From assembly GCF_900096895.1 (NCBI RefSeq), contig NZ_FMYO01000001.1, positions 186,001 through 250,000 of the forward strand: 64,000 nucleotides of DNA, in the 5' to 3' direction. The stretch is from Acinetobacter kookii. Lineage in GTDB: Bacteria > Pseudomonadota > Gammaproteobacteria > Pseudomonadales > Moraxellaceae. The notes under the pieces are model-generated. The model saw only the letters and a program-made list of their open reading frames with translations, was not told the origin of the DNA and searched no databases. How positions within the stretch are numbered: position 1 is the stretch's first letter; every line of letters starts with the position of its first letter. The translations under genes were made by a program, and so were the position numbers. Of the stretch, positions 18,975-22,251 are shown piece by piece.

Positions 18975-19115
18975 AATGACTTAAATAAATGAAATTTTCG
19001 ATTCGCATTTTTTTTAAGAGCGCGTATCATCTGCTTATACGAAGATAATACCTTTTTTATTCTTCGGCACTTTTTTCAAATTACTCATTTATTGCATTTA
19101 AAATTAGGGTTTTAT

Positions 19116-20561
19116 ATGTCACAGGCGAATGCCAGCGCTATGCTTAACTCAGCGAAAGTAGATAATAAAGCAAATGAGTCAGGCCAACTTAAAGAGTTTC
19201 GTACTCCTCCGCACAACTTGGCAATTGAACAAGCCGTTCTTGCCGCGCTGATGACGGTCGCCGAATCTTTTGAGCAAGTCGGTGATGTATTAAATGAAAA
19301 TGATTTCTATGCCACACGTCATAAATATATTTTCCGTGCCATTGAAAAATTAGCCCAGGAAAACTCGCCTTATGATGCGGTTTTGGTCAACGACTGGCTG
19401 ATCAAACAAAATCTGCTCGAGGCTGTGGGTGGCGAAGAATATTTAATGCAGCTGATGGCAGACTCCCCTTCCAGTTTTTATAACCTGGAAACCTACGGCA
19501 ATAAAATTAAAGAATTTTCAACCTTACGCAGCATGATCAAGGTGAGTTCTGAAATTCTGCAGAACGCGTATGACACCAAGGGTCGTACGGTCAGTGAAAT
19601 TCTGGATTTAGCTGAAACCAATATCTTCTCGATTGCTGAACAGCATAACAACAATGCCAAGGCCCAAGGCCCGAAACCGATCAATGCGGTAGTCGCCGAT
19701 GTTTTTGACAAGTTGAATGAACTTTCCCAAATGGAAGGCAACATTACCGGTTTAACATCAGGTTTCGTGGAACTGGATAACAAAACTTCAGGCATGCAAG
19801 CCGGAGATTTGATTATTGTGGCTGCACGTCCATCCATGGGTAAAACCACCTTCGCCATGAACCTGGTCGAAAGTGTGCTGTTTAACTGTGACTTGCCTGC
19901 CCTGGTTTTCTCTATGGAGATGCCCGCAGATTCGATTGCCATGCGTCTGATTTCTGCTTACGGTAAAGTCCATCAGGGTCATCTGCGTGCCGGCAAACTG
20001 GATGGTGATGAATGGTCCAAAGTCACTGGCACCATTTTACAGCTGCAGGAAAAGCATCTGTACATTGATGATTCTTCCGCTCTTCCACCAACCGAAGTCC
20101 GGGCACGGGCACGTCGTATTGCCAAACAGCATGGAGGGAAAATTGGCTGTATCATGGTCGACTATTTGCAGCTGATGAAAGTACCGGGCATGGGCGATAA
20201 CCGTGTTGGCGAGATTTCGGAAATTTCCCGCAGCTTAAAAGCCTTGGCTAAAGAGATGAACTGCCCTGTGATTGCACTTTCCCAGCTGAACCGCTCGCTG
20301 GAAAACCGTCCAAACAAGCGTCCAGTGATGTCCGACTTGCGTGAATCCGGTGCGATCGAGCAGGATGCCGACTTGATCATGTTCATTTACCGCGACGAAG
20401 TGTATAACAAGGAATCTAAAGAAGCCGGTACTGCCGAAATTATTATCGGCAAGCAGCGTAATGGTCCAATTGGTACGGTACGTCTGGCTTTCGAAGGTCA
20501 ATACACGCGCTTTAGCAATCTCTCGCCTGAGTTCTATGCCCAGTACGATGATGAAGAATAA
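19116..20561 (+). CDS. dnaB: replicative DNA helicase DnaB
   Basis: The hexameric ATP-driven helicase that unwinds DNA at the replication fork and interacts with primase. It has 481 residues: an N-terminal primase-binding domain (PHNLAIEQAVLAALM), a linker, and a RecA-like C-terminal domain with Walker A (ARPSMGKTTFAMN), Walker B region (GCIMVDYLQLM) and the QLNR / SDLRESGAIEQDAD motifs. No intein is present. The ATG at 19116 is chosen (AGGG 7 bases upstream) over a TTG frame extension at 19092. Confidence 0.97.
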   Translation: MSQANASAMLNSAKVDNKANESGQLKEFRTPPHNLAIEQAVLAALMTVAESFEQVGDVLNENDFYATRHKYIFRAIEKLAQENSPYDAVLVNDWLIKQNLLEAVGGEEYLMQLMADSPSSFYNLETYGNKIKEFSTLRSMIKVSSEILQNAYDTKGRTVSEILDLAETNIFSIAEQHNNNAKAQGPKPINAVVADVFDKLNELSQMEGNITGLTSGFVELDNKTSGMQAGDLIIVAARPSMGKTTFAMNLVESVLFNCDLPALVFSMEMPADSIAMRLISAYGKVHQGHLRAGKLDGDEWSKVTGTILQLQEKHLYIDDSSALPPTEVRARARRIAKQHGGKIGCIMVDYLQLMKVPGMGDNRVGEISEISRSLKALAKEMNCPVIALSQLNRSLENRPNKRPVMSDLRESGAIEQDADLIMFIYRDEVYNKESKEAGTAEIIIGKQRNGPIGTVRLAFEGQYTRFSNLSPEFYAQYDDEE

Positions 20562-20566
20562 GCCAT

Positions 20567-20578
20567 AAAAAACGAGGT
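20567..20578 (+). terminator. left arm of the dnaB terminator, split by an insertion
   Basis: AAAAAACGAGGT pairs perfectly with ACCTCGTTTTTT at 20877-20888, 298 bases away. Removing the element at 20585-20870 and one copy of the duplication restores a compact hairpin with a GCTG loop followed by T residues, that is, an ordinary terminator after the dnaB stop. Confidence 0.8.
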
Positions 20579-20584
20579 GCTGAC
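20577..20584. repeat. target-site duplication, left copy
   Basis: GTGCTGAC here is repeated at 20871-20878 on the other side of the element. One base of ambiguity at each end cannot be resolved, because the flanking terminator is itself palindromic. Confidence 0.75.
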
Positions 20585-20870
20585 CCACTGCTGTCCCATA
20601 GTTAAATTGCAGGTGTTAGATTTGTGAGTGTGGCAAGGATGCCACACATTCCCCCATCACGACAGGACGTCGTGTATGGGGAATAAAGACTTTTGCCTAC
20701 TTTTGGTCTGTCAAAAGTAGGGTTCAGCCTACACAAAGTGACTTAAACTTTTAAAGAAAAGATAAGGCTGTGAAAAAATTAAATATAAACGAATATCAAG
20801 TGCTTAAATGTAAAATATTATCATGTTGATTTGGTGCGGAAATAAAATTTAAATTATGGGACAGCAGTGG
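20585..20870. mobile_element. MITE-like non-autonomous element (286 bp) inserted in the dnaB terminator
   Basis: The terminal inverted repeats are CCACTGCTGTCCCATA at the left end and its exact complement at the right end (16 bp perfect, with further imperfect pairing inward). They are flanked by an 8-bp duplication GTGCTGAC. No open frame of useful length lies inside. The interior carries three consecutive hairpins: GTGTGGC / GCCACAC (20628-20647), CCCCATCACGAC / GTCGTG-ATGGGG (20652-20681) and CTACTTTTG / CAAAAGTAG (20697-20720). The right third is AT-rich. I do not recognise the parent transposon. Confidence 0.8.
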
Positions 20871-20878
20871 GTGCTGAC
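20871..20878. repeat. target-site duplication, right copy
   Basis: GTGCTGAC, identical to 20577-20584. Confidence 0.75.
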
Positions 20879-20889
20879 CTCGTTTTTTA
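20877..20889 (+). terminator. right arm of the split dnaB terminator
   Basis: ACCTCGTTTTTT completes the original terminator stem of dnaB on the far side of the inserted element. Confidence 0.75.
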
Positions 20890-21186
20890 CTCTTTGGCCT
20901 ATACTCCCCCGCATTTTTTTAAAGTTCACTTAATCGCGCTATTGCTTTAATTCATCACCGCTTAATATTGCATAAATTTTTTCTGTCTAAAATTTGGTGA
21001 AAAATACACTTTAACTTAGTGTTTATTTTCAGTCAGAGGACTACAATACCCTTCTTCATTTTGTTTAAGTTCCTCATTTTCAAGACTGAGGAATGAGCAT
21101 ATCTATAATATTCTTACGTAGCTTATAAGCAATTTGATCTCATAAATTGCTGTAATGTTTTATTGTAACCCCAAGGAGTAACGAGG
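20889..21186 (+). promoter_or_regulatory. alr upstream region with hairpins
   Basis: About 300 bases without a gene. It contains the hairpins TTCCTCA / TGAGGAA (21070-21076 and 21087-21093) and AGCAATTT / AAATTGCT (21128-21135 and 21144-21151), the second ending about 20 bases before the AAGGAGT of alr. The promoter lies here but is not obvious. Confidence 0.4.
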
Positions 21187-22251
21187 GTGCGCCAAGCAAC
21201 AGTTTATATTGATAGAGAAGCCCTTCAATATAATTTAAACCGTGTCAAACAACTTGCACCGACTGCCCAAATTGTCAGTATGGTTAAAGCCAATGCTTAT
21301 GGACATGGAGTCAAAGACTGTTTAGCAGCCTTAGGTGAAACGGACGCTTTTGGTGTCGCCTGCCTGGAAGAAGCCTTAGAAATTCGTGAACTTGGCTATC
21401 AACAACCGATTACCCTGATTGAAGGCATTTTTTCGGAAGATGAAATGCAAGTGGTAATAGAGAACAATATTGAATGTGTAGTCCATCATCAGCAGCAATT
21501 AGACTGGTTACGTGCACACAAAGCAGCCTACATTGGTAAAAACTTAAAAGTGTGGGTCAAACTCAACAGCGGCATGAACCGCTTGGGTTTTAAGGTACCC
21601 GAAATCATTAAAGTGATTAATTCGCTTAAAGCTGAAGGTTTTAGCTGTGTACTGGCCATGCACTTTGCCAATGCCGATGCCGAACATCCTTTAAATGAAC
21701 AGCAAAAAAATCAGTTCCTGCAAGTAAAACAAGCCTGCGCCCCAGTGATGGGCTCTTGCTGCAATTCGGCTGCCATTTATAAGTGGCCTGAATTGAATTT
21801 CGATTTTGTCCGTCCAGGAATCATGCTTTATGGTGCATCGCCATTTGCAGATCAATCTGTCCATGATTTAGACCTTAAACCGGTGATGACTTTTACGGCC
21901 GAGATTATTGCCCTAAACCATATTCAGGCAGGTGAACATGTCGGTTATGGATCCACCTTTACCGCTGACCAAGACATGGACCTCGCTATTGTTTCAATTG
22001 GTTATGGAGATGGCTACCCTCGCGCCTTCCCTAAACAAAATTATGTGGCAATTAACGGTCAAGCGACCCGTGTGATTGGCCGCGTGGCCATGGATATGAT
22101 TGCGATTGATGTGACCGGTATCGATGCGCCACTTGGAACTGAAGTTGAGCTATGGGGTAAAAACCGCCTGGTTGATGATGTTGCCGAAGCCAATGGCACC
22201 ATTGGCTATGAACTACTATGTCGTTTAAGTGCACGTCCTATAAGAAAGTAA
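21187..22251 (+). CDS. alr: alanine racemase
   Basis: A PLP enzyme interconverting L- and D-alanine, providing D-Ala for peptidoglycan. It has 354 residues. The PLP lysine lies in SMVKANAYGHG at about residue 34. The C-terminal catalytic Tyr region contains VGYGSTFTA, and the phosphate-binding segment contains SIGYGDGYPR and RVAMDMIAID. The start is GTG at 21187 with AAGGAGT 7 bases upstream. The dnaB-alr order is common in gammaproteobacteria. It is monocistronic, with its own terminator. Confidence 0.96.
   Translation: MRQATVYIDREALQYNLNRVKQLAPTAQIVSMVKANAYGHGVKDCLAALGETDAFGVACLEEALEIRELGYQQPITLIEGIFSEDEMQVVIENNIECVVHHQQQLDWLRAHKAAYIGKNLKVWVKLNSGMNRLGFKVPEIIKVINSLKAEGFSCVLAMHFANADAEHPLNEQQKNQFLQVKQACAPVMGSCCNSAAIYKWPELNFDFVRPGIMLYGASPFADQSVHDLDLKPVMTFTAEIIALNHIQAGEHVGYGSTFTADQDMDLAIVSIGYGDGYPRAFPKQNYVAINGQATRVIGRVAMDMIAIDVTGIDAPLGTEVELWGKNRLVDDVAEANGTIGYELLCRLSARPIRK

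Follow-up and report, generated by a model that had tools for sequence, protein, structure and literature searches.

The window, a stretch of 64,000 nucleotides of Acinetobacter kookii DNA, carries on its plus strand two open reading frames (ORFs) which, from the first-pass annotation and from recognition of the proteins, we take to be dnaB, the replicative helicase gene (19092–20561, listed from a TTG codon, with the true start perhaps slightly downstream), and alr, the alanine racemase gene and next gene downstream (21187–22251). Behind dnaB, the two halves of its intrinsic terminator are found apart on the plus strand: the 5′ half, comprising A-tract and stem (AAAAAACGAGGT), occupies 20567–20578, and the 3′ half, comprising stem and T-tract (ACCTCGTTTTTT), occupies 20877–20888, exactly as they had been read in the first-pass annotation. 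Between them lies an element of 284 bp (20586–20869, no strand assigned) with perfect terminal inverted repeats (TIRs) of 15 bp, the left one reading CACTGCTGTCCCATA (20586–20600, plus strand) and the right one placed at 20855–20869 on the minus strand. The element is flanked by two plus-strand copies of GGTGCTGACC (20576–20585 and 20870–20879), a direct repeat matching over 10 of 10 bp, with its centre at the terminator dyad. An inverted-repeat element had been recognized here before, and this part of the earlier description stands; its size of 286 bp and its 16-bp repeats do not, since other copies start with CA beside differing, unrelated target bases, which sets the element at 284 bp and the TIR at 15 bp and leaves the extra C/G to the duplication. 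The earlier 8-bp duplication was rejected for the same repeat, which extends to 10 bp.

It was found that all 284 bp recur in the same genome, in seven full-length matches (positions 1–284) with 78–100% identity and E values from 3e-146 to 3e-77, so the insert is not a product of chance. No ORF of at least 60 aa lies inside it in the ORF list of the window, and a minus-strand ORF (20235–20588) merely crosses its left edge. The element is thus short, lacks a transposase gene, and has TIRs, a target-site duplication and multiple dispersed copies, as expected of a miniature inverted-repeat transposable element (MITE), here with ISAbe18-like ends. No match to it was present in the phage collection, and among plasmid records 16 match part of its interior and none matches most of the element. 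When the MITE and one copy of the repeat were deleted in silico, a 12-bp stem with a 4-nt GCUG loop was predicted (−14.5 kcal/mol), which bears out the restored terminator proposed earlier. The same uninterrupted arrangement exists in a relative, G105 (L200), whose dnaB locus is the nearest one (92% identity in the compared stretch) and whose empty site holds a single GGTGCTGACC.

The dnaB–alr region was read at 30 loci, with a MITE present in two (the window and G156), an uninterrupted terminator in 11 and no terminator in 17. In the 17 loci without a terminator before alr (L201, L204–L206, L208, L209, L211, L214, L215, L217, L218, L220–L225), dnaB and alr are nearly adjacent. In G156 the MITE occupies a dnaB terminator that differs in sequence and whose empty form is present in G163, and in G127 an insertion sequence (IS) end starts inside the dnaB terminator, being seen from one end only as the contig stops soon after. 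Three species have therefore been struck at dnaB terminators of differing sequence. The interior of the MITE is not kept at this position across the loci, so the insertion reading, for which conservation in all species had been named as the refutation, holds. Being a MITE, the insert is nothing unusual in kind, and its position is the one typical of its lineage.

The TIR of the MITE, allowing up to one mismatch, occurs in at least 78 of the 175 genomes of the genus; a reversed control pattern gave 15 matches in 13 genomes among the matches listed, indicating that some single TIR hits are due to chance. TIR pairs approximately 1.27 kb apart enclose one transposase gene, and such an IS was also identified in the genome of the window itself (G000:C5:380059-381327, 1269 bp), so that the IS with matching ends which the first-pass annotation had proposed to seek is an ISAbe18-like resident. 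Its transposase matches the IS4-family model NF033592 of NCBIfam (238 bits, cut-off 115) and the Pfam families DDE_Tnp_1 and DUF4372, and plasmid-borne copies related to the IS carry the annotation ISAbe18 family, the transposase of one of them (L294) being 92% identical to that of the resident IS. According to the table available from a previous study, elements of the IS4Sa type have CA------T ends, a length of 1150–1750 and repeats of 8–10 bp (PMC2266710). With CACTGCTGT ends, 1269 bp and repeats of 9–10 bp, the resident IS fits this type by end signature, size and duplication length. By eye, its likeness to the MITE is limited to about 20 bp at each end, the interiors being unrelated. Since only these short ends are shared, the case for mobilization is built on the ends, the duplication length and the target, from which we infer that the ISAbe18-like transposase likely moves the MITE in trans. 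The IS copies of G040 measure 909–1429 bp, and 15 of 18 contain runs of N; their lengths were rejected as IS variants because scaffold gaps explain them, and the sites of this genome correspond to scaffolds bridged across a gap and backed by matching repeats. At G114:C6:1788862-1791182 (L244), ISAbe18-type ends lie 2.3 kb apart with ISAba12-group ends inside, as in a nested IS.

A total of 127 IS and MITE loci were read and their ends paired; this set is a sample of copy-rich genomes among the matches listed. Eight loci gave no pair, and 22 of the 119 pairs were dropped because their repeats differ by more than two letters (recombined, decayed or false pairs), including L004, L005 and L007 of the window's own genome, which are terminators by eye. 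The 97 pairs kept have repeats matching in at least 8 of 10 or 7 of 9 positions, and removal of 11 same-site repeats left 86 distinct sites. A site was called terminator-like when a strong hairpin near the duplication centre was accompanied by four or more consecutive A or T. By this definition, 75 of the 86 distinct sites are terminator-like (61 of 69 for the IS, 14 of 17 for the MITE), compared with 1.2% of shuffled flanks; the 11 sites that fail include two in the own genome (L002, L003). With the search confined to ±4 bp, the best dyad falls within 1 bp of the duplication centre in 91 of the 97 sites. The least variable features are an A-tract 5–9 bases before the duplication, in which A reaches 95–100% at the best position, and a T-tract 5–9 bases after it, in which T reaches 97–100%. 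Between the two tracts the sequence varies, and mirror positions pair above the column expectation (z of about 2–4 at seven position pairs, in 63 sites with 10-bp repeats). By this comparison, the odd position of the MITE is the rule for its lineage and not an accident. A preference of this kind is not absolute, since in Acinetobacter sp. Tol 5 ISAbe18 jumped twice under strong selection between a promoter and bamA, into sites that are not known terminators, according to the passages available from that study (PMC8552602).

Such specificity was found to be confined to one group of transposases. Among more distant transposase relatives with related ends and 9-bp repeats, none of 31 insertions is terminator-like, against 75 of 86 in the clade (Fisher p 2e-19); these 31 outsiders were found by the transposase alone and scored by the criteria used for the clade, with eight loci picked by eye for their flanks and L366 (doubtful ends) left out. 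For a control with the ISAba12 group, ten Acinetobacter genomes were searched and nine of them contributed 20 copies; none of the six copies with matching repeats has a terminator-like site, and of the 14 without matching repeats one passes the hairpin test. An exact TIR scan of genome contigs, in which many single 15-mer hits are probably due to chance, yielded 17 paired loci among the matches listed, 4 of them terminator-like and 13 not. The four comprise the Acinetobacter copies L079, L160 and L163 (in part via flanks common to L267 and L299) and L117. The latter, a 691-bp element with ISAbe18-like TIRs in a contig of Thalassolituus alkanivorans, sits in a clear terminator outside Acinetobacter.

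The transposase search gave matches in 25 of 390 genomes of the order and 15 of 369 of the class, the own genome being counted in both. Elements of other genera whose transposases are at least about 60% identical occupy terminators (L330, L331 and L336 scored, L337 by eye) or half-sites, and L334, also of another genus, has a site with tracts and no strong apex. Where the transposase is at most about 53% identical, 0 of 31 scored sites lie in terminators. The ends could be read at all but 23 of 58 loci, these 23 including L343 and the clade members L332, L333, L335 and L359 (half-sites or unmatched repeats). L343, the nearest outsider (49% identical transposase), has a single site with a T-tract and no clear hairpin, which may represent an intermediate stage on the way to the target preference. 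In a tree of 59 transposases, from which L079 (wrong ORF), L192 and L198 (N-interrupted) and L351 and L365 (long branches) were left out, the 30 clade rows, eight of them labelled by membership rather than by a scored site, form one side of a branch with support of 100/100. The simplest reading of this topology is that the terminator preference arose once.

Regarding what the transposase reads, the first-pass annotation had suggested that hairpins are targeted; the targeting is borne out by the 75 of 86 sites against 0 of 31, while the hairpin as the thing recognized is called into question by the sites without one. An A- or T-tract 5–9 bases outside the duplication accompanies 76 of 76 hairpin sites and also 9 of 10 hairpin-less ones (85 of 86), compared with 7.3% of random positions and 5 of 31 outsiders, and the retention of the tract in the hairpin-less sites suggests that the tract architecture may be what is read. 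Several hairpin-less sites (L195, L230, L291, L312) keep perfect duplications and so have not decayed. The span from tract to tract measures 17.6 ± 1.5 bp in targets (n = 62) versus 19.3 ± 3.0 bp in background terminators (n = 47), a comparison made at hairpin thresholds of 15 versus 18. An alternative is that an extruded hairpin or cruciform is recognized and that the A/T tracts are mere companions of terminators. This would account for the strong palindrome at 76 of 86 sites, for the dyad within 1 bp of the duplication centre at 91 of 97, with an offset (sd 0.57 bp within the ±4 bp search) at least as tight as the distances to the tracts (sd 0.9 and 1.5), and for the excess pairing of mirror stem positions. 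Nevertheless, the hairpin-less sites with a tract at the usual distance argue against it, and genomic DNA that has the tracts at the right spacing will for the most part be a terminator, so that stem pairing might only be carried along. We consider extrusion rather unlikely, while the DNA architecture, more than the hairpin, may be the feature recognized.

The position of the insertions relative to genes raises two further possibilities. Of 40 loci with longer flanks and ORF calls, 39 were scored (L397, a 481-bp element, was left out, and L421 was included despite unmatched repeats), and in all 39 the IS lies behind at least one gene, with 19 convergent, 20 tandem and no divergent arrangements; in the tandem loci the incoming ORF ends 19–88 bp from the element. 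This is what would be expected if the site were marked by RNA polymerase in the act of pausing or terminating, or by factors associated with it. However, no bias of IS orientation relative to the upstream gene was detected in the tandem loci (11 versus 9), the cut keeps to the dyad of the DNA instead of the point of RNA release, and both an A- and a T-tract are present at a larger share of the targets (62 of 75) than of the background terminators (47 of 74, at hairpin thresholds of 15 versus 18), which makes transcription-coupled targeting improbable. Random insertion followed by survival in harmless places only would draw on the fact that terminators are intergenic and probably dispensable singly, as the 17 of 30 dnaB–alr loci without one illustrate. 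Yet a cut no more than 1 bp away from the dyad is not something that selection would produce, and relatives with similar ends and 9-bp repeats sit outside terminators (0 of 31, and 0 of 6 for the ISAba12 group), so that an absence of targeting is hardly credible. The insertion could also have been kept because it alters dnaB–alr read-through, the terminator being physically parted by the 294 bp of the MITE and second repeat. Against this, the predicted RNA re-pairs the terminator stem via the TIRs (−125 kcal/mol versus −75.5 ± 5.6 for shuffles, z −8.9), the dnaB site is one among many similar insertion sites, and 17 of 30 dnaB–alr loci have no terminator there; retention for such an effect is very improbable. 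A simple consensus scan of the plus strand at 20400–21200 revealed no promoter-like site. Because of this and of the predicted re-pairing, a large effect of the MITE on alr is not expected, and the read-through towards alr considered in the first-pass annotation is a weak possibility.

The reading preferred here, and regarded as highly probable, is that the element is a MITE with ISAbe18-like, IS4-family ends, and that a preference for intrinsic terminators arose in the transposase of this lineage, apparently a single time. Comparison between genomes demonstrates the element, the duplication, the empty site, the recurrent position and the clade-wide specificity. As to mechanism, the transposase would make cuts 9–10 bp apart that span the loop of the terminator palindrome, the A-tract lying about one helical turn upstream of the dyad and the T-tract about as far downstream. 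Perhaps acting as a symmetric dimer, the transposase would recognize both tracts and the symmetric centre in double-stranded DNA, and not an extruded hairpin. Landing just behind genes would render the insertion nearly harmless. The loss of the terminator could then be offset in two ways: by an inward-facing, terminator-like hairpin of the IS itself, and, in the case of the MITE, by the TIRs, which would zip the old stem together.

A hairpin located 38–44 bp inside the element end that follows the transposase gene was found in 21 of 21 clade elements examined (including L179, L249, L331 and L337), and in 1 of 22 outsiders (L345, with a 7-bp stem). Base-by-base inspection of 18 elements gave CTCANNTGAG at its apex, with CTTA instead in two, and showed covariation at several stem pairs. 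Read in the sense of the transposase gene, 15 of 21 elements have four or more consecutive A ahead of the hairpin, which correspond to a T-run on the strand read inward; many of these hairpins hence resemble terminators against transcription entering the IS. From this arrangement we infer that the internal hairpin could substitute for the broken terminator. A more far-reaching proposal, namely a terminator-swapping lineage in which a once-acquired, sequence-independent reading of terminator architecture goes together with a covarying, inward-facing replacement hairpin, is put forward tentatively, as a possibility towards which we do not yet lean. The CTCANNTGAG hairpin may itself join in target choice, in which case it would act in trans, given that the window MITE lacks it.

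The interior of the MITE contains a feature of its own. Element positions of approximately 31–190 (window 20615–20775) form a module of three hairpins, placed on the plus strand at 20628–20647 (GTGTGGCA/TGCCACAC), 20648–20684 and 20696–20721. In 25 hand-chosen aligned copies, 98.5% of cells pair, and 12 of 32 pairs have changed on both sides (shuffles 5.6 ± 1.3, with 0 of 500 as high); when the partners were slid by 1–3 columns, 37–49% still paired. The module also occurs in Acinetobacter with other TIRs (L008, L010, L011, L013, L014, L033–L036) or without visible TIRs, and further module loci were noted at L038–L040. A similar extra stretch in the loop of hairpin 2 is shared by L007 and L321–L323, of the window MITE family, and by L013 and L014, of another TIR family, and a further hairpin insert precedes hairpin 3 in L322, L323, L013 and L014. 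Judging from such distributions, module variants seem to pass between MITE families. We regard the module as a candidate for a structured RNA or DNA carried about by MITEs. Rfam gave no hit at gathering score on 20400–21200, and on five module-bearing loci the only such hit was a tRNA elsewhere in L012. Two weak Rfam hits (E 0.37 and 0.43, the second being Bacillaceae-1 on the minus strand over the module) were taken as chance.

A transposon able to find terminators of diverse sequence would have a natural route to "safe" sites behind genes, and terminator targeting would explain how these elements multiply without breaking genes. It predicts the locations of ISAbe18-type copies and MITEs across the chromosomes and plasmids of Acinetobacter, and also that altered 3′ ends commonly arise from terminators split by an IS. 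Since related IS lineages with similar ends lack the preference, the residues responsible for terminator choice should be traceable by comparison and swaps.

The finding is a lineage-wide terminator preference, likely of single origin, with an accompanying internal hairpin, and several known systems approach it in part. Group IIC introns also use intrinsic terminators as landing sites; unlike the clade, they are retroelements that insert downstream of the stem rather than within the loop, and they are not known to make such a duplication. IS231A, an IS4-family element of Bacillus from work by Hallet dated 1994, reportedly favours, like the clade, a GC-rich symmetric centre with bent A/T-rich arms and makes duplications of 10–12 bp. 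It belongs to a different subgroup and is not known to target terminators. The passages available from the first description of ISAbe18 give 1,269 bp and a 9-bp repeat, GCTATAGGC (PMC6863613), and those of another study report it active as a transposon (PMC8552602); with its 1.27 kb and the 9–10 bp duplications it resembles the clade. The word "terminator" is absent from the main text of three ISAbe18 papers (PMC6863613, PMC8552602, PMC7031236), and no report of terminator targeting by any IS was met in the open literature searched, which consisted of titles, beginnings of abstracts and passages, with most subscription papers outside; for the novelty of the phenomenon this negative is weak evidence.

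Among MITEs, MITEAba12 resembles that of the window in being an Acinetobacter MITE; it has 9-bp duplications and is mobilized by a resident IS, as is probable here, and differs in its TIR and parent and, in the portions of the paper available, in having no target trend beyond AT-richness (PMC6382973). BrickBuilt of Porphyromonas is likewise intergenic, with terminators and/or polyadenylation sites predicted in the surroundings of 10 of its 19 copies; however, the case described in the available passages adjoins a terminator without disrupting it, whereas the window MITE splits one (PMC4596501). A further parallel is offered by ISRm22 and other REP-targeting ISs, as far as the available passages on them describe (PMC1525189): as here, an IS4-family member inserts at the axis of a palindrome in intergenic DNA. 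In those systems the target is one repeated family, whereas the clade has struck 86 distinct target sequences that differ from each other and have in common an architecture, namely A-tract, symmetric centre and T-tract.
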